A stretch of DNA of 58,724 bases from an uncultured Bacteroidaceae bacterium (GTDB lineage: Bacteria; Bacteroidota; Bacteroidia; Bacteroidales; Bacteroidaceae), in assembly GCA_905233285.1 (NCBI GenBank), contig CAJODY010000003.1, positions 1 through 58,724 on the forward strand. The letters are read 5' to 3'. This document shows, piece by piece, positions 7,499-32,300 of this stretch. The notes below the pieces were generated by a model. That model did no database searches. It saw only the letters and a program-made list of their open reading frames with translations, and had not been told where the DNA came from. How positions within the stretch are numbered: the stretch's first letter is position 1; each line of letters opens with the position of its first letter. The translations under genes and the position numbers were made by a program.

Positions 7499-9484
7499 AT
7501 GAAAAACCTGCTCGTCACAGCCCTCCTTCTTTGGACATCTACATCGATGGCGCAGACGCTCCATTTCCGCCAACTGTCTGTAAAAGACGGGTTACCCCAT
7601 AATTCAGTAAACGCATTGGGAGAAGACTCAGAAGGACTTCTTTGGGTTGCAACGTCAAGCGGAATGTGCTACACGGATGGTGAGCAGTTCTTCCCCATAT
7701 CGGTCGATAACCTGCCCGATAAACGTGTAGATAGAATCAATCGCGACAGCAAAGGGACTATGTGGGTACAATGCTACGAGCATCACCAGCAAGTGAGTCG
7801 TTTCGACACCCTTACCCACACCTTCGTGACCTATAATGCAGAAGACCTACCCGACTCTGTCCGCCAAGAGGCTATAAGACCCCTGAATCGCAAGTTTACC
7901 GACCCCTATTCTCCACGTGTATGGGATGTGGAGAAACGTATGTTGTGGCAGTCGGACACACTGAGACCCGACACAAAGTTCTTCTATAGCGGACAGATTG
8001 CCATCGATGCCGGACTGAAAGACGAGACCATCTTCTCGCTCCTACTCGACAGCCGTGGCATCCTCTGGGTCGGCACCGGCAACAACGGACTCTTCTTTGC
8101 CGACACACGCCAGAGCCGGTATATCCGCTTGGTGTGCCAAGGAAATCCATTGGCACGTGCCGTATGCAAAGACGCGGAAGGAACCCTGTGGTTCGCCACC
8201 AGCTATCAGGGGCCGAACACCCTTCCCCTTGGCGAGAAAGAATACTCGCCGGTAAGCTACCCGCTGACAGACTCGATTGAGGGACTGCGCATCCGTCCTC
8301 TCATTCTCGACAGCAAGAAACGTCTCTGGATGGGCACCTTCGACGGACTCTACATGAAACCGGCAGACAGCGACACCTTCGAGAAGATATCCTTTATGGA
8401 CACCCTGACGCATGCCATATACGCACTTTTTGAGGATGAAAAGCACCAGTTGTGGATAGGTGCCGAAAGAGGACTCTATATGGCCGACCTGAACGGCCGA
8501 CATCCTCAGCCCCTGCTTGCCGACGGCACACTAAGCCATATCATCGACATAAACATCAGTAAGGATGAGCGCTGGATAGCTACCAACGGTGGTCTGTTCA
8601 AACTGACCGAATCAGGCAACGAACAATGGTGCGACATAGAGGCCCACTCAGTCGTTACCGATGCCCTGGGGCAGACATGGGTAGGAACCGACTACGGGAT
8701 TTGTCTTGCCGCCGACCATCGCCTGCAGCCTTTCCCATCGCCAGCCGACGGACATATCGTGAAAGACCTGCTGCTCTGGCGCGACTTCCTGTGGTGCAGC
8801 TACGACCAAGGCATCTGCTGCATCAACATCTACACAGGGAAAGCCACGCACCTGCGTACAGAATACAACGAATACATAGAGAGCGCATCATATATCGACC
8901 CGCAGTCCGGACACGTCTATTTCGGAGGCACACAAGGCATCGACTGCTTCTCACTTGACAGCCTCGACAGTCAGTTGCGCACCTCACCCCGTCATCTGTG
9001 GCTCGACGAAGTAACCATTGAGCTCTCCCCGAAAGAGTCAGCCGACAGCGCCAGCTCCCTTTGGATATACATCTGCATCCTTCTGGCTGTCGTCATAGCC
9101 GTCAGCACCTTCTTAGTCCTTCGCCACAGGCAGAAACCGTCCGAGGTCTCCGAGCAGGAAGCAGAGGAAGCTCCCCTGTCATCGTTCGAACTGCAGGCCG
9201 CAGCCATAGTGAAGGCCCACATGGCCGATGCCGACTTCACAGCCGACCAGATGGCACGTGAGATGGCCATGAGTCGTTCGAAGCTGTTCACCCTGATGAA
9301 GCAGCACACAGGCAAGGCAGTCATGGAGTTTGTACGCGACATACGTCTCGACTATGCAGCCGAACGCCTGAAGGCAGGTACCACCGTCGCAGATATTGCT
9401 GAAGCGTGTGGCTTCAGCGATGCCAGCAGCTTCCGTCGTTCGTTCGTCCGCAAGTTCGGCGTCACACCGTCCCAATACCGCTAG
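7499..9484 (+). CDS. One-component transmembrane regulator: beta-propeller sensor, single TM, AraC-type HTH
   Basis: 661 residues. A signal peptide (MKNLLVTALLLWTSTSMAQ) precedes repeated two-component-propeller blades, for example GLPHNSVNALGEDSEGLLWVAT and DSRGILWVGTGNNGLF, to about residue 490. One membrane helix follows (about 519-541, WIYICILLAVVIAVSTFLV), then a cytoplasmic AraC/XylS HTH (about 565-661, with MAREMAMSRSKLFTLMKQ and IAEACGFSDASSFRRSF). Compared with classical hybrid two-component systems it lacks the Y_Y_Y domain, HisKA, HATPase and receiver domains, so signal passes directly from periplasm to DNA-binding domain. The adjacent sialate O-acetylesterase is a possible target; that is inference from position. 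Confidence 0.85.
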   Translation: MKNLLVTALLLWTSTSMAQTLHFRQLSVKDGLPHNSVNALGEDSEGLLWVATSSGMCYTDGEQFFPISVDNLPDKRVDRINRDSKGTMWVQCYEHHQQVSRFDTLTHTFVTYNAEDLPDSVRQEAIRPLNRKFTDPYSPRVWDVEKRMLWQSDTLRPDTKFFYSGQIAIDAGLKDETIFSLLLDSRGILWVGTGNNGLFFADTRQSRYIRLVCQGNPLARAVCKDAEGTLWFATSYQGPNTLPLGEKEYSPVSYPLTDSIEGLRIRPLILDSKKRLWMGTFDGLYMKPADSDTFEKISFMDTLTHAIYALFEDEKHQLWIGAERGLYMADLNGRHPQPLLADGTLSHIIDINISKDERWIATNGGLFKLTESGNEQWCDIEAHSVVTDALGQTWVGTDYGICLAADHRLQPFPSPADGHIVKDLLLWRDFLWCSYDQGICCINIYTGKATHLRTEYNEYIESASYIDPQSGHVYFGGTQGIDCFSLDSLDSQLRTSPRHLWLDEVTIELSPKESADSASSLWIYICILLAVVIAVSTFLVLRHRQKPSEVSEQEAEEAPLSSFELQAAAIVKAHMADADFTADQMAREMAMSRSKLFTLMKQHTGKAVMEFVRDIRLDYAAERLKAGTTVADIAEACGFSDASSFRRSFVRKFGVTPSQYR

Positions 9485-12992: not shown

Positions 12993-13955
12993 ATGCTTGG
13001 ACTCGTCATCAGGAATACAGGCTACAGCTATACGGTAAAGCCCATAGACTCCGCGCCCGATGAAGGCTCCGGAGTCTTCTCGTTATATGAGTGTAAGGTA
13101 AAGGGCAACTTCCGCATCCGAGGCATACGCACCACCAACCCCATAGCCATAGGCGACCGAGTGCAGTTCACACCACTCAAGGAGGAGAACGCCGGACTCA
13201 TCACCGACCTCGAAGAGCGAAAGAACTACATCATACGCAAATCAATCAACCTGTCAAAGCAGTCGCACATCATCGCTGCAAACGTAGATCAGTGTTTCCT
13301 AATCGTCACCATTCAGCAACCAGAGACATCTCTCACGTTCATCGACCGTTTCCTCGCATCGGCTGAAGCCTATCGAATACCTGTCACCATCGTCATCAAC
13401 AAGATTGACCTCATCACCCCAGAATGGCAGGAATACCTCGATGGAATCGTCAATCTTTACACCACAATCGGCTATCCGTGCCACCGCATCTCGTCGGTCA
13501 CCGGTGAAGGCGTAGAAGCCTTGCGTGGCGAATTGAACGGGAAAATCACCCTCCTCTCAGGAAACAGCGGTGTGGGCAAATCGACTCTCATCAACGCCCT
13601 TTTCCCTCACCTCAACCTACGTGTCAGCGAGATATCAGATACATACGGCACAGGTAAGCATACCACTACCTTCAGCGAGATGTACCCCATAGCCGATGAT
13701 GCCTATATCATCGACACCCCCGGCATCAAGGGATTCGGTACGTTCGACATGAACCGCAACGAAATAGGGCATTACTTCCGCGAGATATTCCGCTACTCTG
13801 CCGACTGCCGGTTCAACAACTGCACACATACCCACGAACCCCATTGTGCCGTGCTGCAGGCTGTTGCCGACCATAACATCAGCCAGTCGCGCTATAACTC
13901 CTACCTATCCATGCTTGACGATGAAAACGAAGATAAATATCGCCCTGCGTTTTAG
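12993..13955 (+). CDS. rsgA: Ribosome small-subunit-dependent GTPase RsgA
   Basis: Circularly permuted GTPase that checks late 30S subunit assembly. It has 320 residues: an N-terminal OB fold (with RVQFTPL), then motifs in permuted order NKIDL (G4), GNSGVGKST (G1, about residues 190-198), and DTPGIKGFG (G3), then a C-terminal zinc site in [14 protein letters not shown]. It lies between ribF and a TPR gene; its last 35 bases overlap the TPR gene start, which suggests coupled translation. Confidence 0.93.
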
Positions 13956-14766
13956 TTTACTGCTTACGGTTTACAGCTTACTGCCGGTCACGGCATCTGC
14001 CCAGAGCTATGAGCAGTATGTCGAGGCAGGCATCAAGGCTGCCGACCATCAGGCATACGCCGAAGCAGAGGAGTGTTTCCGTCAGGCTCTGCGGCTTTCA
14101 CCCGACGATTATCGCAATGCCCTGCTCTTTGCCAATATGGCAAGGGTGCAGCAGGAGCAGGGAAAGAAACAGAAAGCCCTGGAAAGCTACGACAGGGCAC
14201 TCTCCATCGCACCACTCAACCTGCCCATACTCCATTCGCGTGCCGACCTCTACTTCGAAATGGGTAACTACAAGAAGGCTCTTATCGACTACGGCAACAT
14301 ACTCGACAAAGACCCTGACAACACAGCTGCCCTGCAGGCTTGCGGATATATATACCAGCAACTTGAAAACCACGAACAGGCACAACAGTATTTCGACCAT
14401 CTGCTACGCATCGACCCCGACAACTACACGGCTCTGCTCGGCATAGCACTCATAGAGCAAAGCCTTCACCACACATCGGAAGCCCTGGCACGTCTGACAC
14501 GTCTCATCGAACAACACGCAGACAGAGCTGAACTCTACACCATACGTGCCGAGATTGAAGCCGAGAACCGCCAACCCGAACTCGCCATCATGGACTTGGA
14601 CAAAGCCATCGAACTGGAACCCGGTAATGCAAACACCGTCCTGACTCGTGCCTATCTGTACAAACTGACAGGCAACAAAAGGCTGGCTCATCACGACTTC
14701 GAACGTGCCATCGAACTGGGTGTGCCTCGCAGCAGCCTCAAGCGAGAACTCAAGGAAACAAAATAG
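13921..14766 (+). CDS. Exported tetratricopeptide-repeat protein
   Basis: 281 residues with a signal peptide ([20 protein letters not shown], cleaved near SAQ) followed by about seven TPR units from residue 30 to the C-terminus, for example [19 protein letters not shown] and [18 protein letters not shown]. TPRs act as protein-binding scaffolds; the partner is unknown and a periplasmic location is inferred. The ATG at 13921 lies inside the end of rsgA. An upstream frame extension to 13846 is not needed and has no signal sequence at its start. Confidence 0.8.
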
Positions 14767-14803
14767 ACAACGATTTTTAACGGTTATTTTTTCGTCTTTT
14801 TCT

Positions 14804-14833
14804 TTTGAGTTTGAAGAATAAACAATATCTTTG
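14804..14833 (+). promoter_or_regulatory. Promoter of the fumarase-frr-VTC gene run
   Basis: TATCTTTG (14826-14833) with TTTG at 14804-14807, 18 bases upstream. Start ATG at 14865. No other clear promoter box was seen between here and 20314, so it may drive seven genes. Confidence 0.6.
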
Positions 14834-14864
14834 CGAGGAAATAACATTAAATCGGAAATATACT

Positions 14865-16517
14865 ATGGCACAGGCTCCAGATTTCAAGTATGCTCCTATG
14901 TTCCAGCTGGGAAAGGACGACACTGAGTATTATCTGCTTACAAAGGAAGGTGTAAGCGTAAGTGAATTTGAAGGAACACCTATTCTGAAGGTCAGCAAAG
15001 AGGCACTGACGAAGATGGCTAATGCTGCGTTCAGGGACGTGAGTTTCCTGCTGCGCAGAAGTCATAACCTGCAGGTTGCAAAGATTCTGCGCGACCCGGA
15101 GGCTTCGGCTAACGACAAGTATGTGGCTCTGACATTCCTCCGCAATGCCGAAGTGGCTGCCAAGGGTCAGCTGCCGCTGTGTCAGGACACCGGTACTGCC
15201 ATCATCCACGGTGAGAAGGGTCAGCAGGTGTGGACTAACTTCTGCGACGAGGAGGCACTGGCAAAGGGTGTTTATAAGACTTACACAGAGGAGAACCTGC
15301 GCTACTCGCAGAATGCTCCGCTCGACATGTATAACGAGGTGAACACGAAGTGTAACCTGCCCGCTCAGATTGACATCGAGGCTACAGAGGGTATGGAGTA
15401 CAGGTTCCTGATGGTGACGAAGGGTGGCGGTAGTGCCAACAAGACTTACCTGTATCAGGAGACAAAGGCAAGAATACAGAATCCGGGTACTCTGATTCCG
15501 TTCCTCGTAGAGAAGATGAAGAGTCTGGGTACGGCTGCCTGTCCGCCATATCACATCGCAATAGTCATCGGTGGCACATCGGCAGAAAAGAACCTGCTTA
15601 CTGTGAAGCTGGCTTCGACCCACTACTACGACTCACTGCCTACGACTGGCGACGAGACCGGACGTGCTTTCCGCGACATAGAACTGGAGAAGCAACTGCT
15701 ACAGGAGGCTTACAAGATTGGTCTGGGAGCTCAATTCGGAGGTAAGTATATGGCTCACGACGTACGTGTAGTCCGTCTGCCTCGTCACGGAGCTAGTTGT
15801 CCGATTGGTCTGGGCGTGAGCTGCTCTGCCGACCGCAATATCAAGGCTAAGATAAACAAGGACGGAATCTGGATTGAGAAGATGGACGACAAACCATACG
15901 AACTGATTCCTGAAGAACTGAGAAACGCAGGTGAGGGCGACGTAGTGAAGATTGACCTGAACCAGCCAATGGACGAGGTGTGCAAGATTCTGTCGAAGTA
16001 TCCTGTAAGCACACGTCTGAGTCTGAACGGAACTATCATCGTGGGGCGTGACATCGCTCACGCAAAGATTAAGGCTCGTCTGGATGCCGGCGAAGAGATG
16101 CCACAGTACCTGAAAGACCATCCTATCTACTATGCAGGACCGGCAAAGACTCCGGCTGGAATGGCTTGCGGTTCGATGGGACCGACCACTGCCGGACGTA
16201 TGGACCCGTATGTTTACGAATTCCAAGACCACGGAGGCAGTCGCATCATGCTGGCTAAGGGTAACCGCTCGATTGACGTCACCAACGCATGTAAGGACCA
16301 CAAGGGCTTCTACCTCGGTTCAATCGGTGGACCTGCTGCCATCCTGGCTCAGAACAATATCAAGAGTATAGAATGTGTAGAGTATCCGGAACTGGGCATG
16401 GAGGCTATCTGGAAGATTGAAGTGGAAGACTTCCCTGCTTTCATCCTCGTGGACGATAAGGGCAACGATTTTTTCAAGCAGCTTAAACCTTGCGAAGGTT
16501 GCACCATTCTAAGTTAA
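14865..16517 (+). CDS. fumA: Fumarate hydratase, class I (iron-sulfur)
   Basis: Interconverts fumarate and malate in the cytoplasm. It has 550 residues from [15 protein letters not shown], the length of the fused single-chain class I enzymes. It shows the N-terminal Fe-S region ([46 protein letters not shown]) and the C-terminal half with [14 protein letters not shown] and the catalytic [16 protein letters not shown]. It fits with sdhB at the right edge of the window in a fumarate-respiring anaerobe. The symbol fumA versus fumB is not distinguishable here. Confidence 0.93.
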
Positions 16518-19433: not shown

Positions 19434-20311
19434 TGAAAGGACGTATCAGCACTACATACAAGTTTCTGCTGGTCTGCGCCGTAGCACTGACAACGATTGT
19501 CACCACGGCAAGAGGTGACGACTTCGGAATGGATTTCAGTGTAGAAGCAAACAAGAAACTGATGGAGAACCGACTGACACTGGGGTTGAGTCTGGACGCA
19601 CGTACTCAGGACAACACCAGTCAGATGGAGCGTTATGGCATTGAGTTGGGCGGCAACTACAAGCTGATTGACACCAAACGGCATACGCTGAAAGCGGGAG
19701 TCACGTTCGAACAGATGTGGATGAAGAATCTGCCGGAAACCAAGGACACGTACAAGGTAAAGTATTATACGGATAAGTTCGACTATCTGGGCAATGGAGA
19801 GTTCGGACCGATAGAGAAAGGATATAATGTAGGACAGAACTACGACGCTTCGTTCTGGCGAGGCCGAAGCCGACTGAACATGAGTGTGGCGTATTCAATC
19901 AAATTGTTCAAACGTCTGACCGTGACCCTGAAAGAAACGGTACAATATAACCACTTCTATCAGGCTACTACCGAGCGCACGAAATACAGGACAAAGTACA
20001 GGTATAATGCAGCTCCGACCGACACGGTCTATACGGCAGAAGAAATAAAATACTGCAAGAACCGTTGGATGCTCCGCTCAAAACTGACATTGCAGTATAG
20101 CAGAAAAAGAAGTCCATGGGAACCGTACGTGGCGGTAGATTACGGATGCGGATTGGGTAACGATGCTTATAAGTGGAAGTTCATAGCAGGTACAGAGTAC
20201 AAAATTACGAAGCAGCACACTCTGAATGTGTTCTACAGGTATCAAACAGAAAACGATTATGACGAACCCAATGGGCATATCGTCGGTTTAGGTTACAGTT
20301 TCAAATTCTGA
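19430..20311 (+). CDS. Predicted outer-membrane beta-barrel protein (DUF2490-like)
   Basis: 293 residues, with a signal sequence ending near TTARG, followed by alternating amphipathic strands (LTLGLSLDARTQD, YGIELGGNYKLID, HTLKAGVTFEQMW, LTVTLKETVQYNHFY, LTLQYSRKRSPWEPY) and a terminal aromatic strand GHIVGLGYSFKF, as expected for a small outer-membrane barrel. It resembles DUF2490 proteins in length and strand pattern. Its position, overlapping the DUF4956 gene and 2 bases from the lipoprotein gene, suggests a role in the same cassette; what passes through or binds to it is unknown. Confidence 0.65.
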   Translation: MMKGRISTTYKFLLVCAVALTTIVTTARGDDFGMDFSVEANKKLMENRLTLGLSLDARTQDNTSQMERYGIELGGNYKLIDTKRHTLKAGVTFEQMWMKNLPETKDTYKVKYYTDKFDYLGNGEFGPIEKGYNVGQNYDASFWRGRSRLNMSVAYSIKLFKRLTVTLKETVQYNHFYQATTERTKYRTKYRYNAAPTDTVYTAEEIKYCKNRWMLRSKLTLQYSRKRSPWEPYVAVDYGCGLGNDAYKWKFIAGTEYKITKQHTLNVFYRYQTENDYDEPNGHIVGLGYSFKF

Positions 20312-20313
20312 TT

Positions 20314-21504
20314 ATGCAAAAGTTTCGGTTCTTATATATTATAATATGTATAGCTGCCCTGTCGGCTTGTAACGACGAGAGTTACTTGAACGACCTCGAA
20401 AACGAGGACACTATACCAAAGCCCGTTTTCATCGATATTACGTACAATGGAGGAACGGCAAATGTATCGATTCCATCGACGGCTGTAGGTGTAAGTTGTG
20501 CGTCAGGAACAAATACCGACGTCGTACTTACTTTGGACGATGCCGTGCTGACAGAATATATTTACAGGGTAAAGGGTTCGTCGGCAAGCGGTTCACTGAC
20601 CATCAACAGCAACTATAAACTGACTCTACTGCTGGCTGGAGTGGATTTGACAAGTACGGCTGTCACACCAGCCATGCATATAAACTGTGGAAAGCGCGTA
20701 TCGGTGATTCTGCAGGAAGGGACGGAAAACAGTTTTACGGATAATGCCTCGAACGACAAGAAAGGAGCGTTCTATACGAAAGGACACATGGAGATTGAAG
20801 GTGGCGGTACGCTGAACGTGACCGGCAAAGCGAGACATGCCCTGTGTTCAAAGGAATATATGCAACTGAAGAAAACTACCGGAACCATCAACATTGTCGG
20901 TTCGGTGGGTGACGGTATTCACTGCGGAAAGGGCGACCAAGACCCTCTGAATAATTATTTCAAGATGAGCGGAGGCACATTGAATTTTTCCGACATAAAA
21001 GGCGACCTCATCGACTGCGACGACTATGGGAATGCATATATCAGCGGTGGCACGCTGAACCTGACCGTTGACGGCTCAGACGTAAAAGGACTGAAAGCCG
21101 ACTCTATAGTGGAAATCAGCGGAGGTACACTGAACATTGACGTGTCAGGCATGAATGCAATTGGCATACAAAGTAATTATGCCACATACTGTTCAGGAGG
21201 TACAATAACAGGAACCGTAAGCGGTACGAACGCTATAGGATTGAAGTCGAATATCAGTTCGAGTTCTTATGTAATGGAAATAGATGACGAAGCGGGATTG
21301 ATAGGCTGCATGTTTCTGTCGGGTATAAATATAGACCTGAATGTGACTGGCAGTGGTAGTCGGGGGATACGGACAGACAAGGATCTGACTGCCACAGGAG
21401 GAGTCATCGCACTGAGAGGATTGTCTGCGAACAGTCCTGGATACAAGGTTAAGGGAACATTCAGTGGTTCAGACTACTTCTCATGGACAAGTACCGATGA
21501 GTGA
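20314..21504 (+). CDS. Cthe_2159-type carbohydrate-binding lipoprotein
   Basis: 396 residues with a lipoprotein signal (LSACNDES, lipid Cys19). From about residue 100 it is built of right-handed beta-helix-like turns with repeated ISGGTLNL/ISGGTLNI and GDLIDCDDYGNAYISGG, the pattern of the Cthe_2159 polysaccharide-binding family. Members bind acidic polysaccharides such as pectate and often occur beside VTC and DUF4956 genes. Here it ends the cassette. Its last 31 bases overlap the convergent dus gene. It is expected on the periplasmic or outer face of the outer membrane. Confidence 0.75.
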   Translation: MQKFRFLYIIICIAALSACNDESYLNDLENEDTIPKPVFIDITYNGGTANVSIPSTAVGVSCASGTNTDVVLTLDDAVLTEYIYRVKGSSASGSLTINSNYKLTLLLAGVDLTSTAVTPAMHINCGKRVSVILQEGTENSFTDNASNDKKGAFYTKGHMEIEGGGTLNVTGKARHALCSKEYMQLKKTTGTINIVGSVGDGIHCGKGDQDPLNNYFKMSGGTLNFSDIKGDLIDCDDYGNAYISGGTLNLTVDGSDVKGLKADSIVEISGGTLNIDVSGMNAIGIQSNYATYCSGGTITGTVSGTNAIGLKSNISSSSYVMEIDDEAGLIGCMFLSGINIDLNVTGSGSRGIRTDKDLTATGGVIALRGLSANSPGYKVKGTFSGSDYFSWTSTDE

Positions 21505-22565
21505 ACTATAAAATCGTGAGCCTCGTCGAGAAGGGAAAAGAGTTCGGACTGACTTTCAGCCCTCAGGATGCGAATGCGGAGTTCACGGAAATTAGGAATA
21601 CCCTTGAATAAAGGTGAACTGGCAAGATGGCGACGTACATGGATGATACCTCCAAGTTCGGTTCGCCTTCTTTCTTTCATCCCGTTGTCGGAACGCAGAC
21701 TATAGGCAACGGACTGCTCAATCTGCCTACGAAGCACGGAGAATTTCCAATCGATGGTCATGGAGGCATCATGAGAGCCTGTGTCGAGGAATGTACGTAT
21801 GTCGCGGAATAGCCAAGGTTGCCCCAGACTGGCACGCCCAATCATAATAGCATCGACTCCATAACGGTCAAAAGCATCGCGACATTGCTCGGCTGTGCAT
21901 ATATCACCGTTTCCAATTATTGGTATGTGAATACTCGGACTGTTCTTCACTTCCCCTATCAATGTCCAATCAGCTTCACCCTGATACATCTGTGAACGAG
22001 TCCTGCCATGTATGGTAAGAGCAGCAATGCCACAATCCTGCAGGCGTTCCGCCAACTCAAGTATATAGGCTTTGCCATGGGGCGCATCGGGAAGGAAAAG
22101 GGAAGCATCGTGCATAGTTGCCACATCCCAACCGAGACGGGTCTTGACGGTAACAGGAGTATGAACGGCATTAACGACTGCACGGGTAATGTCGAGAAGA
22201 AGTTGAGGAGTGCGCAACATGCCAGAACCTGCACCTTTGCTCGCAATCTTTTTAACAGGACAACCAAAGTTTATGTCAATAATGTCGGGGTGAACCTCTG
22301 ACTCAACGATACGAGCTGCCTCGACCATACTGTCAACATCACGACCATAAATCTGTATGGCTACCGGACGCTCCACTTCTTCGATTCGAATTTTCTCGAG
22401 CGAACGCTGTACGGAACGAATCAAAGCATCGGCACTGACAAACTCAGAATAGACCATCGATGCCCCGAACTCACGGCAAAGAATGCGAAAGGCCTGATCG
22501 GTCACATCCTCCATAGGAGCAAGCAGCACAGGACGAGTGCCGAGATTTATGTCTGAGATTTCCAC
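21474..22565 (-). CDS. dus: tRNA-dihydrouridine synthase
   Basis: FMN enzyme reducing uridine to dihydrouridine in tRNA D-loops. It has 363 residues. Motifs: VLLAPMEDVTDQAF, DINFGCPVKKIASKGAGSGM with the catalytic cysteine, VTVKTRLGW, LTIHGRTRSQMYQGEADW, GNGDICTAEQC and IGRASLGQPW. The start is taken as GTG at 22565. The longer frame would begin with a TTG at 22595, but this lies in the -7 box, and the family N-terminus aligns with the GTG. DusB-like, but the exact subfamily is not assigned. Confidence 0.9.
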   Translation of the reverse strand: MEISDINLGTRPVLLAPMEDVTDQAFRILCREFGASMVYSEFVSADALIRSVQRSLEKIRIEEVERPVAIQIYGRDVDSMVEAARIVESEVHPDIIDINFGCPVKKIASKGAGSGMLRTPQLLLDITRAVVNAVHTPVTVKTRLGWDVATMHDASLFLPDAPHGKAYILELAERLQDCGIAALTIHGRTRSQMYQGEADWTLIGEVKNSPSIHIPIIGNGDICTAEQCRDAFDRYGVDAIMIGRASLGQPWLFRDIRTFLDTGSHDASMTIDWKFSVLRRQIEQSVAYSLRSDNGMKERRRTELGGIIHVRRHLASSPLFKGIPNFRELRIRILRAESQSELFSLLDEAHDFIVHSSVLVHEK

Positions 22566-22592
22566 TTTGTCAGTTTTTTTGTCTTGTTTGTG

Positions 22593-22600
22593 CAAAAGTA
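22593..22600 (-). promoter_or_regulatory. -7 promoter box of dus
   Basis: TACTTTTG on the minus strand fits TAnnTTTG. Transcription would start near 22586, leaving about 20 bases before the GTG start. Confidence 0.5.
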
Positions 22601-22643
22601 TGATTTTTTTTCAAAAAAATAGATGTGTAAGACAAAATCTTCG

Positions 22644-22651
22644 TATCTTCG
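22644..22651 (+). promoter_or_regulatory. -7-like box of the tandem kinase gene
   Basis: TATCTTCG, one base from TAnnTTTG, 23 bases before the ATG at 22675. Divergent from the dus promoter. Confidence 0.4.
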
Positions 22652-22674
22652 CAATTGTAACCTCCAAGAAACAC

Positions 22675-25600
22675 ATGAGAAATACTATACGATTATACCT
22701 ATATGTGGCATTATTTATTGCAACAGGTGGATTCTTTGTATCATGCGGAGAAGGTAGCTCAAGAGCTGATGTGCACAGTATTGTAGTACTCCACTCATGG
22801 GATGCCAGCGGTGAGGAGGGTGAATACTTCCAGAAAACGATGAAGGAAGAATTTCACAAGGCTGGTCTAAAAACCGAGATTCACCATATCTATGCAAACC
22901 TGCTCCACAGACCTCTTCACATGTTTACGACCGAGGACTGGCCTGTGTATCTGGATTCAATACGGACTTGGAAACCTGACATAATCCTGATAAACGACGA
23001 CCCTGCTCTGTCATGGGTGTTCAAGGAGAGACCATGCGATTCCTTATTCTTTAATATTCCTATTGTTTTTGCCGGTATAAACGGACTGATACGTGACTCC
23101 GTGATGCATTATCCTTTAATGACGGGATTCGGCAATAATATAAACCTACCTAGATGTATCGAAATGATGTACACCGTGACAGGTGAACACATGGCATATG
23201 TAGAGTTGGACAACACTCCGTATGAGATGGAACTGAGAAGGAAATTCTACGGACAGTTGTCAGATACGACACGCTTCGTGAACAACAACATAGAACACTT
23301 GCCGACACTAGACAAAGATTATATCAAGAAGAAATACCCTTCGAAAACAGTAATAGACTTCGTATCGTTTGCAAACCCAGAAGAAAATGCTCATGGCAAA
23401 CATGCCAAGAGTGCAGGCGAGAAGAAACTGCAACAATCTTTGCAAAACGCAAAGAACGCTTGCCATATACAGGTTAAGTATGATATCTATTCAAATGCAC
23501 TGCTCGACTTCACTCCAACCCCTCAATTCACATGTATAAGGGCACAATTCAACGACCCCAAGAAAATCAGGTTCCTGGGTGGTTTCTTCACCTCGACTGA
23601 GGTACAAATAAAAGACCAAGTTGACTATGCAGCAAGAATACTCAAGGGAACGTCCCCTACAGCACTGAACACAACTGTGCACATGAGCGATTTCTATATG
23701 GACTACAATGCCATGAAGAAGTATCATCCAGTGCTTAAGTATGAAGATTTCGCCGGGAAATATCATATAATAAATGCCCCAATGGCATTGGAAAGTCCCA
23801 TTTACTATCACCTCGTCATTGCTGTGGTAGCAACCATTGTGTTCCTGATTATCATCTTCATGGCACAACTTCTTTACCGATGGAGACAGAAAGGACAAAG
23901 AGCATTGCTGGACGACCTGCTTTATGAAGACAAAATGCATGATTTGATTTTCTCTAACAGCGACGACACACTGTGGCATATAAACGGACAGAATATTACA
24001 TTCTCAAAGGAGTTTGCAGTTAAGCATAATATGGACAACAACACCATGTTGCTACGCAACTTCGAAAACATGGTTCACAATGATAGTCAATTATCGCTAC
24101 GACTGCTGGAAGATTTCCGAAACCAACGAGGGAAGAAGACGCTGCGATTTCGACTCACATTCAATGAAGGACAAACATGGTCGTGGCACGAAATGACCTA
24201 TACCATAACAGATGAAGCTATCAATAGCGGCTACCTTTATGGAATCATGCTTAACATAGACAAGAAGAAGGCGGTGGAAGACACACTGGCCGACGCACAA
24301 ATGAAAGCAAGCGAGGTTGCTCTGAAAGAAAACTTCCTTGCAAACATAAGTCACGACCTACGTACTCCGCTCAATGCCATAACAGGATTCTCGATGCTTC
24401 TTACAAACAAAGACATGACCTTTGAAGAGGGAGAACGAGAAGAATACGGCAAGATTATCCATCAGAACACCGACATGATTCTGAATATGATTGACAGCGT
24501 GATGAAGAAAGCACAACTGGAAACCGGAGAACTCGAGTTGATTATGAAACCGGCAGACATCGGCGAAGTAGTGCAGAAAGTATATCTGACAAACAAAATC
24601 ATAGCACCAACCCATCTGAATTTCGAACTTGTGCCATCCCAAGGAGAATTCATCGTGAACATTGACACCACACGAACCATGCAGGTGATAAACAATTTCC
24701 TGAGCAACGCCTTCAAATTCACAGCCGAAGGCTCGGTAACGCTCGGTTGGCACCGACTCGACGAGGGTAACACGGTTGAAGTATATGTAAAGGACACCGG
24801 CATCGGAGTTGATGAGGAAGGGCAAAAACACCTGTTCGACCGCTACTATAAAGAAAAGGAGAACGATAAGGGTACGGGTCTGGGACTGAACATCAGTAAG
24901 ACTATCATAGAAAAGCAAGGAGGAAGTGTAGGTATAGAAAGTAAACTGGGTGTGGGTAGTAAATTTTTCTTCAGGTTGCCACGCTATATACAGTGCCTGT
25001 TACTCTTCCTGGGATTAGGAATTGGCACTGGACTGTTCTCTTCGTGTACTAGAAACACCGAACTGCCCCCTCAAAACAATGTACTCGTCTTTCATGGCTA
25101 CTCAAACACATTCTTCAGTTTTTCGAAGTTTGATGAGTGTCTGCAGGCAACCTTACGACGCCAAGGTATCAATGCAGACATCAAGAACGTGTATATGGGA
25201 CTGGAAAATCCTACCAACAGCAGCGACAAAGCTATAGAGGCCATGCTCGACTCCATACACAAAATACACTGGCGACCCGACATCATCATCGCCGAGGGTG
25301 ACCGAGCTGTCAACGACATAATGAAAAGCAACAACAAAGAACTTATAGCTTTCATCGACACACTGCCGATAGTGTTTGGAGGTCTTCACCACCCCAACTG
25401 GAACCTGCTGCGTGAGCACAAAAACATTGTCGTTTTCTACGATCCTATCGACTACCCTGCAAACATAAACCTCGCAGTGGAACTGACTGGTAAGAACGTA
25501 ATAAACATCGAACTCGATCACTTCCAGCAAGACACCATCATCCGTAAAGAGTTGGCTCAGACTATAGCCCGTCCACCCTATGTAAACCGAATCGGACAGT

Positions 25601-27270
25601 CACCCGACATCAGCGACATAGAGCGCATATCCACCCACTTCAACGACAGCATATTCATCTACACCACCTCAGCCGTAAGAATGAAGCAGTACATCAACGA
25701 CAGTGGAATACACGATACCGACCTCGTGATAGAAAATAACGAAACAGAGATGTACATGCATGCTTGGATGTTCCCACAGCTCTCCGTCAAAATGGACTTG
25801 TTTGCAAATGCAGTCATCGACAAAACCAATCGCCCTCAGTTTACAGCTGTCAAAGCAGGATTTGGCGACGGAAGAGGACGATATCTGGCTGGGTACTTTG
25901 CAAGTCATCAGACTGTAGCGACCGACATCGCAAACACAGCATCTAAAATACTGCACGGAGAATTTTCAAGCGACCTCTCAGGAAAACAACATGAGAAACG
26001 CTACTATATGGATTATCAAGCCATGCAGCGCCTAGGGTTGAACTACTACGACTACTCAAACCGATTTAATATCGTCAATGCCCCCATCCGTTACCGCTAC
26101 CCTCTACTTTACTACTCCGAATATCTTATACTCTTCATTTTCGGTGCTGCATTAGTGATGATATGGCTCGCACTCATTAATTATTGGCGCGAACGTTCCG
26201 ATCAAGTCTTGATATCAAATATCCGACAAAAAGCCAATCTGCGCATCCTATCGCTCAACGGAGCCGACAGCAGACCTTTGAGAAACGAGGAGGGCGTGAG
26301 GAATGTTTTAGATCATATCCATCCGGAACACAAGGAGAATATTCAGTTCATCGGACAATCTCTGCAAATAGAGGGTGCTCACCAGTATGACATTTACGCT
26401 GATGTAGATGAAGACGGACAATACGAATGGTGGCAACTGCGTTTTGTTGTGTTCAAAACCAAGGGCAACAAAAAACGTATAGACGGACTTGTCATCAACA
26501 TCAATGAATCAAAGAAATATGAGGAAGAAATGAAGATGGCAATAAAATTGTCGGAAGAGGCAAAACGCAAAGAAGACTTCCTTATGACCATAAGCCACGA
26601 GATTCGTACCCCACTCAATGCCGTTGTGGGTTTCAGTGATGTAATTATATCTCTGCCTCCCGACTCATTGTCTCAACAAGAACTTGATGAAATCAGTTTC
26701 TATATAAACGAGAATAACACTAAACTTGCTTCAATGATAGAGGATATATTAATGTTCTCGCGTATAGAAAGCGGGAGACTGAAATTTGTCAATTCCGAAT
26801 TTAATGCCTCAGAATTGCTTCAAGAGATACAAAACGACTGGCGTGATAAAGTTCCTAAGGGAGTTAGTTTTTCTGTATCTAACACACACAATGACATATA
26901 TCTAAATACCGATAGAGTGCGTGTGAAATATATCCTTAACCAACTTGTAAGCAATGCAGTGAAGTTTACAGAGAGCGGAACAATATTAATAACGGCATTC
27001 TACCACTACAAAGATAAAAAAGTGGAATTCCGAGTAGAAGACTCCGGCTGTGGCATCTCACTAGAAAAACAAACTGCCGTATTCAATCTTTTCTGGAAAG
27101 ATAATGAATTTGTACCAGGACTTGGTCTTGGCCTGAACGTTGCCAATAAACTGGCAGAAGGAATGAATGCAAAACTAAAAGTGGATAGCAGCGAAGGTGA
27201 CGGTTCTGTATTTAGTTTGCTCCTTGATGCCACCATCAAAAAAAATCCGAAGATTGACGAACAAGCATAG
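22675..27270 (+). CDS. Tandem fused sensor histidine kinase (two complete kinases in one chain)
   Basis: 1531 residues. Module 1: lipoprotein-like signal (FFVSC, Cys24), a periplasmic ABC-substrate-binding-like sensor, a TM (about 377-402), a PAS-like linker, HisKA with ISHDLRTPLN (His560), and HATPase with NNFLSNAFKF, DTGIGV and GTGLGLN, ending near Pro769. Module 2 follows without break: a hydrophobic stretch with FSSC (771-791), a second similar sensor (VLVFHGYSN...), a TM (about 1149-1172), HisKA with ISHEIRTPLN (His1308), and HATPase with NQLVSNAVKF, DSGCGI and GLGLGLN. Topology is self-consistent: both sensors periplasmic, both kinases cytoplasmic. There is no receiver domain, and no response regulator lies in the window. 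It probably arose by fusion of two neighbouring duplicated genes. Confidence 0.85.
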   Translation: MRNTIRLYLYVALFIATGGFFVSCGEGSSRADVHSIVVLHSWDASGEEGEYFQKTMKEEFHKAGLKTEIHHIYANLLHRPLHMFTTEDWPVYLDSIRTWKPDIILINDDPALSWVFKERPCDSLFFNIPIVFAGINGLIRDSVMHYPLMTGFGNNINLPRCIEMMYTVTGEHMAYVELDNTPYEMELRRKFYGQLSDTTRFVNNNIEHLPTLDKDYIKKKYPSKTVIDFVSFANPEENAHGKHAKSAGEKKLQQSLQNAKNACHIQVKYDIYSNALLDFTPTPQFTCIRAQFNDPKKIRFLGGFFTSTEVQIKDQVDYAARILKGTSPTALNTTVHMSDFYMDYNAMKKYHPVLKYEDFAGKYHIINAPMALESPIYYHLVIAVVATIVFLIIIFMAQLLYRWRQKGQRALLDDLLYEDKMHDLIFSNSDDTLWHINGQNITFSKEFAVKHNMDNNTMLLRNFENMVHNDSQLSLRLLEDFRNQRGKKTLRFRLTFNEGQTWSWHEMTYTITDEAINSGYLYGIMLNIDKKKAVEDTLADAQMKASEVALKENFLANISHDLRTPLNAITGFSMLLTNKDMTFEEGEREEYGKIIHQNTDMILNMIDSVMKKAQLETGELELIMKPADIGEVVQKVYLTNKIIAPTHLNFELVPSQGEFIVNIDTTRTMQVINNFLSNAFKFTAEGSVTLGWHRLDEGNTVEVYVKDTGIGVDEEGQKHLFDRYYKEKENDKGTGLGLNISKTIIEKQGGSVGIESKLGVGSKFFFRLPRYIQCLLLFLGLGIGTGLFSSCTRNTELPPQNNVLVFHGYSNTFFSFSKFDECLQATLRRQGINADIKNVYMGLENPTNSSDKAIEAMLDSIHKIHWRPDIIIAEGDRAVNDIMKSNNKELIAFIDTLPIVFGGLHHPNWNLLREHKNIVVFYDPIDYPANINLAVELTGKNVINIELDHFQQDTIIRKELAQTIARPPYVNRIGQSPDISDIERISTHFNDSIFIYTTSAVRMKQYINDSGIHDTDLVIENNETEMYMHAWMFPQLSVKMDLFANAVIDKTNRPQFTAVKAGFGDGRGRYLAGYFASHQTVATDIANTASKILHGEFSSDLSGKQHEKRYYMDYQAMQRLGLNYYDYSNRFNIVNAPIRYRYPLLYYSEYLILFIFGAALVMIWLALINYWRERSDQVLISNIRQKANLRILSLNGADSRPLRNEEGVRNVLDHIHPEHKENIQFIGQSLQIEGAHQYDIYADVDEDGQYEWWQLRFVVFKTKGNKKRIDGLVININESKKYEEEMKMAIKLSEEAKRKEDFLMTISHEIRTPLNAVVGFSDVIISLPPDSLSQQELDEISFYINENNTKLASMIEDILMFSRIESGRLKFVNSEFNASELLQEIQNDWRDKVPKGVSFSVSNTHNDIYLNTDRVRVKYILNQLVSNAVKFTESGTILITAFYHYKDKKVEFRVEDSGCGISLEKQTAVFNLFWKDNEFVPGLGLGLNVANKLAEGMNAKLKVDSSEGDGSVFSLLLDATIKKNPKIDEQA

Positions 27271-27419
27271 TATTACACATTATTACACATTATATATTAT
27301 AATAAGTATATATTCACTCTAATGTAATACTATATCGTGGCTTATCACGCACTTTTTTTGCCTAGTTTTTATAGGAAAAACAGCTCACATCATCAAAACG
27401 TCTAAAAATAGGCCTGTGC

Positions 27420-27452
27420 GGGCACACAAAAGGGCAAAAACACTGTGTGCCC
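27420..27452 (+). repeat. Inverted repeat downstream of the kinase gene
   Basis: GGGCACAC (27420-27427) and GTGTGCCC (27445-27452) form a perfect 8-bp stem around a 17-base loop. No U-tract follows, so termination is uncertain. The surrounding 27271-27510 holds a duplicated TATTACACAT and no gene. Confidence 0.4.
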
Positions 27453-27514
27453 CCACACATCTATTGATATACATCATTATTTTTCGTAAAAAGTGCTCTT
27501 TTCCTTATAAAATA

Positions 27515-27545
27515 TTTGCCACATGTGAAAAGCACCGTACCTTTG
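27515..27545 (+). promoter_or_regulatory. Promoter of the 25-residue peptide gene
   Basis: TACCTTTG (27538-27545) with TTTG at 27515-27518, exactly 19 bases upstream. The leader to 27762 is about 210 bases and contains four GGTTA(G) repeats at 27590, 27605, 27622 and 27634. Confidence 0.65.
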
Positions 27546-27762
27546 CATCGTCAAAAGACAAGAAAAGAAATAAACGATAGTAGAAAAAAGGTTAAAGACA
27601 TAAAGGTTAGTTAAAGAAAAAGGTTAGTTTAAAGGTTAGTAAAAAGATTGTGTTTCGATAAGTAGGAGTTTTAGGTAAAAGATTTGATTGTAGGAAGGAT
27701 AACAGGGTTCGCCCTATTTAAGTATTAAAAATTAAAGTAAAAAAAAGAAAGGAGACTGTATT

Positions 27763-27840
27763 ATGGCAACAATGACAATTATCGCTGCAGTTCTCGTAGC
27801 AGTAGCAGCAATCGTGGCCAACATTTCTATTTTGAAATAA
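27763..27840 (+). CDS. 25-residue hydrophobic membrane peptide
   Basis: A short ORF reading MATMTIIAAVLVAVAAIV then ANISILK-stop: one predicted membrane helix with a lysine end. Support comes from its own consensus promoter, a strong AAGGAG ribosome-binding site 9 bases before the ATG (rare in Bacteroidales), and a terminator downstream. Function unknown; a small membrane regulator or a type I-like toxin peptide is possible, but no antisense RNA was recognised. It is the only coding feature in the 27271-28016 gap. Confidence 0.6.
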   Translation: MATMTIIAAVLVAVAAIVANISILK

Positions 27841-27911
27841 TAAGGCATGTAAAAGTCTCACATTTTATGAGACAACAAAAAAGAAAAAGGTTTTAGTTAG
27901 ATAATATGTCA

Positions 27912-27957
27912 GGCGACACTTGCAAGTTTTTACTTCAGGTGTCGCCGAAGTTTTTAT
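27912..27957 (+). terminator. Intrinsic terminator of the 25-residue peptide transcript
   Basis: GGCGACAC (27912-27919) pairs perfectly with GTGTCGCC (27939-27946), followed by GAAGTTTTTATTTAATTT. A smaller hairpin GTCTCA/TGAGAC lies just upstream (about 27854-27872). Confidence 0.7.
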
Positions 27958-27966
27958 TTAATTTAT

Positions 27967-27997
27967 TTTGTTCTGCACTCACTTAATCGTACCTTTG
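27967..27997 (+). promoter_or_regulatory. Promoter of hisS
   Basis: TACCTTTG (27990-27997) with TTTG at 27967-27970, 19 bases upstream; ATG at 28017. Confidence 0.65.
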
Positions 27998-28016
27998 CAC
28001 TCATATTTATAAAAAC

Positions 28017-29369
28017 ATGGCACAAAAACCAAGCATACCCAAAGGAACAAGAGACTTTTCGCCTCTTGAGATGGCAAAACGTAATTACATTTTCAATACA
28101 ATCAAGGAAGTATATGCCCTATATGGTTTTCAGCCGATAGAGACTCCAGCAATGGAGAATCTATCAACCTTGATGGGTAAATACGGCGAAGAAGGAGACA
28201 AACTTCTGTTCAAGATTCTGAACAGCGGTGATTTCCTGAAAGGTGCTCCTCTGTCACCGGCCGATGGAAACCCCAATATCTTGGCTGCCAAGATTTGCGA
28301 AAAAGGACTGAGATACGACCTAACCGTACCATTTGCACGATATGTGGTGCAGCATCGCGAAGAACTAACGCTTCCGTTCAAGCGCTATCAGATACAGCCC
28401 GTATGGAGAGCTGACCGTCCGCAAAAAGGACGTTACAGGGAATTTTATCAATGTGATGCCGATGTCGTAGGTAGCGACAGCCTTCTCAACGAGGTTGAAC
28501 TAATGCAGATTATCGACACAGTATTCACACGTTTCGGCATCAGGGTTTGTATAAAAATAAACAACCGTAAGATTCTCAGCGGTATAGCCGAGATAATAGG
28601 TCAGGCCGACAAGATTGTCGATATAACTGTAGCTATCGACAAACTTGACAAGATAGGGCTCGACAACGTAAATGCCGAACTGGCAGCAAACGGAATTCCA
28701 GCTGAGGCAATTGAAACTCTGCAGCCCATCATAAACCTGAAAGGCACAAACTGCGAGAAACTTGCAACCATGCGTCGTGTTCTGGCTAACAGTGAAACAG
28801 GACTGAAGGGCATAGAAGAATGCGAATACATAATATCAAAACTGAACGGACTAAACAACGAAGTGGAGCTTGACCTCACACTTGCACGCGGTCTCAATTA
28901 CTACACCGGTGCCATATTCGAGGTAAAAGCTCTTGATGTGGAAATGGGAAGCATAACCGGTGGCGGACGTTACGACAACCTGACCGGAATTTTCGGTATG
29001 CCAGGACTCTCCGGAGTAGGTATTTCGTTTGGAGCTGACAGAATTTTTGACGTACTTAACCAACTTGACCTCTATCCAAAGGATGCCGTTAGCACAACAA
29101 AGATATTGTTTGTAAACTTTGGCGAGAAAGAGATGGATTTCTGTCTGCCTATCATTGCCAAGATAAGGGCTGCAGGCATCAGTGCCGAGATTTATCCTGA
29201 CTCAGCAAAAATGAAGAAACAGATGGCTTATGCCAACACCAAGAACATACCGTATGTAGCCATTGTGGGCGAAACGGAAATGGCAGCAGGAAAAGTGACG
29301 GTGAAGAACATGGAAACAGGCGAGCAACAGATGATGAGCGCCGATGAGATAGCTGACATTCAATTCTAA
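28017..29369 (+). CDS. hisS: Histidyl-tRNA synthetase
   Basis: Class II synthetase that charges tRNA-His. It has 450 residues. The start region [27 protein letters not shown], motif 2 ([25 protein letters not shown]), the histidine-binding [15 protein letters not shown], and motif 3 [10 protein letters not shown] are all present, with the C-terminal anticodon-binding domain from about residue 345. It belongs to the bacterial/eukaryote-like variant with a slightly longer insertion. purL follows after 25 bases and is probably co-transcribed. Confidence 0.95.
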
Positions 29370-29394
29370 TTTGAAAAACAAGAAAAAGCATAAT

Positions 29395-32300
29395 ATGATC
29401 TACTTTTTTCAGACACCCAACAAAAGCATTTTAGCTACAAGCGTTGACCACACCCTCAGTTCGCAGGAGATTGACTCTCTCTGCTGGCTTTACAACGAAG
29501 CGATACTGCTAGATAAGCAAGTATTGGAAGGTTATTTCGTAGGACCCCGTCGCGAGATGATTACTCCATGGAGTACGAATGCCGTAGAAATCACTCAGAA
29601 TATGGCACTCAAAGGAGTAAGCCGAATCGAAGAGTATTTCCCTGTAAAAGATGAGAACGCAGATTTCGACCCTATGCTTCAACGCATGTATAAAGGGCTT
29701 AATCAGGATATTTTCACTGTCAACATTCAGCCTGCCTCCATTATATCTGTAGAAAACCTCGAAGAATACAACGAGCAGGAGGGTCTGGCACTTTCTCCCG
29801 AAGAAATAGAATACCTTCACAAGGTTGAAGGACAGCTGGGCAGAAAACTCACAGACTCAGAAGTATTTGGTTTTGCGCAAATTAACTCTGAACACTGCCG
29901 ACATAAGATATTTGGTGGAACATTCATTATCGACGGTGAAGAGAAAGAAAGTTCGCTGTTCCAGATGATTAAAAAGACAACCCAGGAGAATCCGAATAAG
30001 ATACTTTCTGCATATAAAGACAACGTAGCATTCAGCCAGGGACCCGTCGTAGAGCAATTCGCTCCGAAAGATCACTCCACAAGTGACTACTTTGTAGTTA
30101 AGGATATCGAATCGGTCATTTCGCTGAAAGCAGAAACACATAACTTCCCGACTACAGTCGAGCCATTCAACGGTGCTGCCACAGGCACTGGTGGCGAGAT
30201 CCGCGACCGTATGGGAGGTGGAGTAGGCAGCTGGCCAATTGCCGGTACCGCTGTTTATATGACATCCTATCCACGCAACCATGCTGGCTGCGAACATGAA
30301 TGGGAGAAAATCCTGCCCGTACGCAAATGGCTCTACCAGACACCCGAACAGATTCTCATAAAAGCCAGCAATGGTGCCAGCGACTTCGGAAATAAATTCG
30401 GACAACCACTCATCTGTGGTTCTGTACTTACGTTCGAACACTCTGAGAACAACGAAAACTATGGTTACGACAAGGTTATCATGCTGGCAGGAGGTGTTGG
30501 CTATGGTACAAAGCGCGACTGTCTGAAAGGTACACCCGAGAAAGGAAATAAGATAGTAGTAGTAGGTGGTGACAACTACCGCATCGGACTCGGTGGTGGC
30601 TCCGTCAGTTCGGTAGATACAGGTCGTTACTCAAGCGGCATAGAACTTAATGCTGTACAGCGTGCCAACCCTGAGATGCAGAAGAGAGCAAACAACCTCG
30701 TTCGTGCTCTCTGCGAGGAAGATGTCAACCCTGTTGTTTCTATCCACGACCATGGTAGTGCAGGACACGTAAACTGCCTGTCAGAGTTGGTAGAGGAGTG
30801 CGGTGGTCTTATCGACATGACCAAACTGCCAATCGGCGACCAGACCCTTTCGAGCAAGGAAATCATTGCGAACGAGAGTCAGGAACGTATGGGTCTTCTT
30901 ATTGATGAAAAACATATCGACCACGTACGCAAGATAGCAGAACGCGAACGTGCGCCGCTGTACGTAGTAGGTGAAACCACAGGTGATGCACACTTTGCCT
31001 TTGAGCAGGGCGATGGAGTACGTCCGTTCGATCTCGACGTGGCACAAATGTTCGGTCACTCTCCTAAGACATATATGAGAGACGAAACTGTAGAACGGAA
31101 ATACGAAGACGTCACCTATTCATATAACGACATAGAGCAATACCTAGAAAACGTACTGCAGCTGGAAGCCGTAGCTTGTAAAGACTGGCTCACGAACAAG
31201 GTGGATCGTAGTGTGACCGGTAAAATAGCACACCAACAGTGTCAAGGTGAAATCCAATTGCCACTCAGCGACTGTGGAGTGGTAGCTCTTGACTACCGTG
31301 GAGAGAAAGGTATTGCTACAGCTATAGGTCATGCACCGCAGGCAGGACTTGCCGACCCCGCAGCAGGTAGCGTGCTTTCTGTTGCCGAGTCGCTTACCAA
31401 TATTGTTTGGGCTCCAATGGCCGACGGACTCGATTCAGTCAGCCTCTCCGCTAACTGGATGTGGCCGTGCCGTAGCCAGAAAGGTGAGGATGCACGTCTA
31501 TATGCTGGCGTAAAAGCACTCTCCGACTTCTGCTGCGAACTGCAAGTAAACGTGCCTACAGGAAAAGACTCCCTCTCAATGACACAAAAATACCCCGACG
31601 GCAGCAAGATTGTCAGTCCTGGTACGGTCATCGTCAGTTCCGGTGGCGAAGTGAGCGACATACGCAAAGTCGTTTCTCCTGTTCTTGTGAACAACTGCAA
31701 CACCACCCTTCTACATATCGACTTCAGTTTCGACACACTCAAGCTCGGCGGCAGCGCTTTTGCCCAAAGTCTTGGAAAGGTGGGCAGCGACGTACCGACA
31801 GTGAAGAATGCGGAATACTTCCGTGATGCTTTCCTTGCAGTCAACGAACTGGTAAAAGATGGCCTTCTGCTCGCAGGGCACGATATATCAGCCGGTGGAC
31901 TCATCACTTGTCTGCTCGAGATGACATTTGCCAACCAAAAGGGCGGTATCGAAGCCAATCTCAACGGCATAAACGAAAAAGACCCTGTAAAGCTCCTATT
32001 TGCTGAAAATCCGGGAGTAGTCGTACAGATAAAGAACTCCGACAAGGCAACCGTTGAGAAGATGCTTGACAACGCCGGTGTAGGCTTCGTTGAAATCGGC
32101 CATCCAATCAAGGAACGTCAGATTGTAGTGAAGAAAGACAGCCGTACACGTCGTTTCGACATCGATGCCCTTCGCGACGTCTGGTACTCCACATCTTTCC
32201 GTCTCGACACAAAGCAAAGTTTCAACGGCATGGCCGAAGAGCGTTTCCGCAATTATAAGAATCAGCCCATCGAACATAAGTTCAACGCCGATTTCACCGG

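Follow-up and report, generated by a model that had tools for sequence, protein, structure and literature searches.

The question raised by this locus is why two complete sensor histidine kinases, proteins usually regarded as homodimers, should be encoded head to tail in a single gene, and whether the two halves act together. The window analyzed here (the whole stretch of 58,724 nucleotides from an uncultured Bacteroidaceae bacterium, contig CAJODY010000003.1 of assembly GCA_905233285.1) contains an unbroken open frame on its forward strand, running from an ATG at 22675 to a stop at 27270 and encoding 1531 amino acids without any internal stop codon. Two HisKA and two HATPase_c domains were matched along this chain by Pfam and, as both sets have their H, N, D and G motifs, the chain is predicted to hold two HisKA-type kinases, with His560 and His1308 as the phospho-acceptors of modules 1 and 2, respectively. 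No receiver domain (Response_reg) was found in the chain by Pfam at E-values up to 1, and the protein is therefore not a hybrid histidine kinase; NCBIfam returned kinase-core matches alone, all of them below the cut-off. The two complete kinases, their phospho-acceptors, the missing receiver and the signal-like stretch with a cysteine at the beginning of each half had all been proposed in an earlier note made from the sequence of the window, and all were borne out. On the evidence of the open frame, the Pfam matches and a genus-wide search, the gene (22675-27270) encodes a genuine double histidine kinase that is conserved, spans the membrane and has no receiver. It is somewhat probable, judging from the sequences of its relatives, that this protein is a fused heteromer of two partner kinases, A and B, with an orphan CheY-like protein as its probable phosphoryl target.

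The same order of parts was seen in both halves, namely a lipoprotein-type signal, a periplasmic sensor of about 350 residues, a membrane segment, a PAS-like domain, HisKA and HATPase, with hydrophobic segments at four places in the chain. In module 1, the N-terminal signal (22675-22746), read from the sequence, ends in the lipobox cysteine Cys24 and is followed by periplasmic sensor 1 (22747-23808), a transmembrane segment recognized as a hydrophobic run (23812-23865), a PAS-like domain with approximate ends (23962-24258), HisKA (24325-24525, Pfam and sequence, with His560 at 24352-24354) and HATPase_c (24664-24984, Pfam). Module 2 opens with the hydrophobic segment at the junction (24994-25047), which ends in an internal lipobox-like Ser-Cys (Cys791, 25045-25047), and continues through sensor 2 (25048-26121), a second hydrophobic run taken as its transmembrane segment (26122-26178), a PAS-like domain (26296-26487), HisKA (26569-26769, with His1308 at 26596-26598) and HATPase_c (26911-27231, Pfam). 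The second HisKA stretch was also found by Pfam, its ends being placed by analogy with module 1. The first PAS-like domain was located from the secondary structure of a model and from Foldseek matches to sensor-kinase structures, and the second from its alignment with module 1 and a PAS_3 match below the cut-off (E = 0.18). The domain list of the earlier note could be kept as given, except that it had overlooked the PAS-like domain between membrane segment and HisKA in each half, the one in module 2 being weak.

An assembly or sequencing error, which the earlier note had already argued against, was ruled out by the presence of the full-length chain in 35 of the 45 genomes of the genus, at identities of 47-100%. 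All but one of these carriers (34/35) were reported to be free of stop codons; the remaining one, G695, was flagged with a TGA, yet its frame is open for 1567 amino acids. In an alignment of 35 rows (L037 and L038 standing for G708 and G262), the H, the N-box N, the G1 D and one G2 Gly were invariant in both modules, as were the N-terminal lipobox cysteine and the Ser and Cys of the junction. The ratio of nonsynonymous to synonymous substitution rates (dN/dS) was 0.019-0.119 in the 5 of 14 comparisons in which it was computable, all of them for the junction or module 1; synonymous sites had reached saturation in module 2, for which conservation is all that is claimed. Split genes in related genomes had been named beforehand as an observation that would speak against the fusion, and they do occur in sister genera, but every one of the 35 carriers found in the genus itself has the two halves fused, so the split form points to the past of the gene rather than to an error.

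The origin of the two halves was apparent from these relatives, in which A denotes the family of module 1 and B that of module 2. Among 301 genomes sampled from the bacterial family, 33 contained sensor-bearing homologues (a count that leaves aside lower-scoring, core-only matches), comprising 18 of the window's genus (g1), 4 of g2, 5 of g21 and 6 of g24. The g24 genomes encode A and B separately, in abutting or overlapping frames. In g21, four genes form a row A1 B1 A2 B2 (L040-L044) and, in four of the five arrays, A2 and B2 lie in the same frame with one stop between them; a single in-frame stop likewise parts A2 from B2 in L045. Of the g2 genomes, one carries all four genes separately, another a split pair, one an A1-B1 fusion (1372 amino acids) plus split A2 and B2, and one a different fusion (1503 amino acids) with a split pair elsewhere. 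A tree built from 86 modules separated the 43 rows of A from the 43 of B with full support (100 in the Shimodaira-Hasegawa-like approximate likelihood ratio test) and with broadly mirrored subtrees, by which a recent tandem duplication was ruled out. This parting, together with an identity of only about 24% between sensors 1 and 2, indicated that the halves are old paralogues. The proposal of the earlier note that two tandem duplicates had fused was thus right in that tandem kinases of ultimately duplicate origin have indeed fused, but the duplication is an old one. Fused rows stand at three positions in the tree, with split relatives near each, suggesting by eye that fusion took place three times; alternatively, the history may be one of a single older fusion followed by more fissions. 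Single-module kinases of the same family were also seen in other genera (L061 and L062, for example), at 751-783 amino acids per gene and 27-31% identity to module 1 proteins; they share the order sensor, PAS-like, HisKA and HATPase but have one module per gene. At an E-value of 1e-60, at which weaker relatives would escape notice, a search across the order (393 genomes) returned the window and one single-module kinase.

Dependence between the partners was indicated by a census in which 43 A/B pairs were scored at eight catalytic columns of the alignment. Both halves were complete in 27 pairs. In the 16 others, one or other partner had lost its phospho-histidine or its ATPase domain, and 12 of these 16 kept exactly one complete partner, a pattern which fits an A/B heteromer. 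Partner B is complete in five pairs in which A retains the histidine and lacks the ATPase domain (pair 1 of g21), and in two in which A lacks both (pair 1 of g2). The reverse was seen in four pairs in which A is complete and B has lost the histidine with its ATPase motifs kept (pair 2 of g2 twice, pair 2 of L040, and L048), and in one in which A is complete and B is degenerate (L046). In L041, L043 and L047, the A1 proteins gave no Pfam match to HisKA or HATPase, and a single HisKA/HATPase set was found in the fused L045 pair; HisKA is called by Pfam even in the B proteins that lack the histidine, and those losses rest on the alignment. The case for a heteromer is drawn mainly from these B proteins of the relatives, in which the ATPase site is conserved and the histidine lost; a protein of this kind could have no target except another protein, and it makes sense if that target is its partner.

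The gene is the product of a fusion between partner kinases A and B, which in sister genera are usually separate genes lying side by side. Two periplasmic sensors would be held side by side and may read different ligands or states, the two PAS-HisKA-HATPase halves would pair in the cytoplasm as an A/B heteromer and phosphorylate or gate one another, and the fusion would fix A to B at 1:1. A heterodimer-like unit had been suggested in the earlier note and, given the parts lost by partners in relatives, it is still the best reading. A different view, which we consider improbable, is that independent, homodimerizing kinases were joined by loss of a stop codon, with little gain beyond co-expression. 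The lone in-frame stop between A2 and B2 in four of the five g21 arrays and in L045 leaves a fusion one step away, as this view would expect, and the completeness of both halves within the genus is in keeping with it. It is, however, at odds with the occurrence of fused genes at three places in the tree, with the retention of the fusion by the genus, and with the degeneration of partners in relatives, which implies dependence.

Sensor 1 of the fused kinase may be of the Venus-flytrap kind, with a type-1 periplasmic-binding-like fold, which is a guess from weak matches to ABC_sub_bind in other sensors and from a poor model. Among 48 sensors scanned with Pfam, 5 matched ABC_sub_bind at E-values up to 0.1 (best 1.4e-4), sensor 1 of the window giving no match, and L061 reached 22.0 bits where the cut-off lies at 25.9. 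A sensor model with a mean predicted local distance difference test score (pLDDT) of 50.6 gave a best Foldseek E-value of 0.0039, with no structure matched at 0.001 or below, and the neighbours shown were mostly periplasmic-binding-type folds; a sensor profile searched against the sequences of the Protein Data Bank reached an E-value of 0.089 at best. For the cytoplasmic part of module 1, modeled at a mean pLDDT of 57, Foldseek gave matches covering most of the length to structures of WalK and LOV kinases, with E-values down to 7.5e-23 and a poor overall superposition (template modeling score, TM, of 0.3-0.4 by query), and a match to the core of HK853 with a target TM of about 0.74.

A candidate for the output of the fused kinase was found among the receivers of the window's genome. 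Five were above the cut-off, two of them beside kinases; two further ones we take to be PorX-like and REC-PP2C-like, and an orphan single-domain CheY-like protein is encoded at C11:34984-35397 (genome G000). At identities of at least 65%, a threshold chosen after the list had been viewed, this regulator was present in 35/35 kinase carriers of the genus vs 4/10 non-carriers (Fisher's test, p = 2.6e-5), and at the search's own E-value of 1e-20 in 35/35 vs 6/10 (p = 0.0014). In the family sample it was found at 59% identity or more in 29 of the 33 kinase carriers. In all six g24 genomes with an A/B pair it lies about 1.8 kb from a pair on the opposite strand, with a second receiver beside it in each of the six and an AraC-type protein as well in L055. 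The CheY-like protein is a likely output of the fused kinase, as judged by these distributions, and phosphoryl groups would probably pass to it from the heteromer.

Besides the late choice of the 65% threshold, several observations weigh against a heteromer signaling to this regulator. The kinase occurs without the regulator in G241, G265, G073 and G090, and the regulator without the kinase in G042, G294, G693 and G705 within the genus and in G187 and G288 outside it. No receiver was found near the fused gene in ten loci of the genus scanned (the window and nine others), nor within the stretch scanned around the second pair of G119. The regulator and the kinases are on different contigs in g2 and g21, and in four of the five g21 loci it is a hybrid regulator that is located close to the array. 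The regulator statistics are further weakened by shared descent and incomplete genomes. As to the heteromer itself, the 16 degenerate pairs amount to few independent events in few lineages, most being shared by the five g21 genomes, and a division of labor is seen in relatives alone, both halves being complete in 35/35 carriers of the window's genus. The histidine is missing from both A and B in four pairs (pair 2 of g21), the tree was built by a quick method that gave long-branch warnings, and the fold of the sensors is weakly inferred. The g21 pairs without a phospho-histidine on either side, found in the arrays of four of the five genomes, retain their ATPase motifs. Elsewhere in the window's genome (C50:23203-23522), a receiver match below the cut-off extends over two frames beside AraC-like sequence and is possibly a broken hybrid regulator.

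The junction between the halves bears on a further alternative, rather unlikely but to be taken seriously, by which Lgt and signal peptidase II would act at Cys791 and yield two lipoprotein kinases at 1:1, which may still pair. The junction Ser-Cys is invariant throughout the genus (35/35) though its flanking residues vary, and cleavage into two lipoproteins could therefore still take place; a cysteine also ends the junction segment in two other fusions (L045 and L046), and separate B proteins start, by eye, with lipoprotein-like signals. The segment is nevertheless a poorer lipobox than that of the N-terminus, the last five positions of a PROSITE-like pattern being fitted by 16/35 junctions vs 32/35 N-termini. 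Proline precedes the junction cysteine at -3 in 19/35 carriers and is rare there among N-terminal lipoboxes (2/110 in a rough survey, the window's junction being one of the two). A signal peptide was also not indicated by a short segment, since at 19 residues it is as long as the membrane segments of the window (18 and 19), and a signal following a cytoplasmic domain of 770 residues would be unusual, which likewise counts against cleavage. The fullest version of this idea, a natural polyprotein receptor from which signal peptidase II would release two partner kinases that form an obligate heteromer and signal to the detached CheY-like regulator, is in our view doubtful.

The spacing at the junction was found to be nearly constant. 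By eye, about 5 residues separate the last strand of the first HATPase from the hydrophobic segment, and the distance from a GSKF motif (GSTF in two carriers) to the junction cysteine is 31 residues in 32/35, 30 in one and 28 in two; the other two frames across the junction contain several stops each. An internal start was rejected as a general explanation, as the sole in-frame start codon seen near the junction of the window is a TTG (24976-24978) and a methionine 12-24 residues before the inner cysteine is present in 19/35 carriers, in which an internal start may be used. A further cysteine at the start of the segment (Cys774, 24994-24996) is conserved in 31/35.

Among the neighboring genes, an SSF symporter follows the fused gene in at least 14 loci of other members of the genus (as in L056, with transporter stretches at 7512-8810 and 13581-14999), and a MatE transporter lies upstream of it in at least 12 genomes; neither was found beside the fused gene in the window, L037 or L038. 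Two further proteins, one of about 440 amino acids with weak TPR matches and a small one of about 150, are encoded after the A/B pair in six of the seven g24 loci (L050-L055; at 9641-11379 in L051 and 9471-11224 in L055). In the window, the fused kinase is separated from a histidyl-tRNA-synthetase-like gene by about 750 bases (27271-28016) with no open reading frame of at least 100 amino acids listed, and no Rfam match was obtained in 20000-30000.

With split pairs, pairs with a crippled partner and fused pairs all present in one bacterial family, the question of an obligate heterodimer becomes directly testable, as does the contribution required of each kinase half, and the invariant Ser-Cys of the junction offers a clean test of maturation from a fused precursor. 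Dual histidine kinases are known in fungi. No membrane-bound fused kinase pair appeared in the titles and abstract openings of the open-licence papers listed in literature searches, which does not prove its absence in print. As far as the available part of the published accounts goes, GacS and RetS are alike in that one sensor kinase acts on another, but they are separate, unfused genes and RetS is a hybrid kinase. For Corynebacterium, a pseudokinase variant of the histidine kinase ChrS that has a biological effect is described, but the portion of that report available mentions neither a fusion nor a family of A/B pairs. The closest described kind is the TodS-like double sensor kinase, TodS of Pseudomonas putida being described in the accessible text as two PAS-plus-kinase modules with a receiver between them and no transmembrane region (PMC4861429). 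Two autokinase modules per chain, as in TodS, might suggest that phosphoryl groups are relayed within the protein from the first kinase to the second, but this is scarcely credible for the fused kinase because the receiver that would connect the two histidines was not found at E-values up to 1. The two proteins are alike in carrying two sensor and autokinase modules in one chain; as the fused kinase has no receiver between its modules and does have membrane segments, it was not classed as TodS-like. The view of the earlier note that a doubled full kinase was uncharacterized hence does not stand as worded, TodS, so far as that account describes it, being double already, but the form found here, which is receiver-free, spans the membrane, carries periplasmic sensors and has a signal-like junction between its halves, is a different one.

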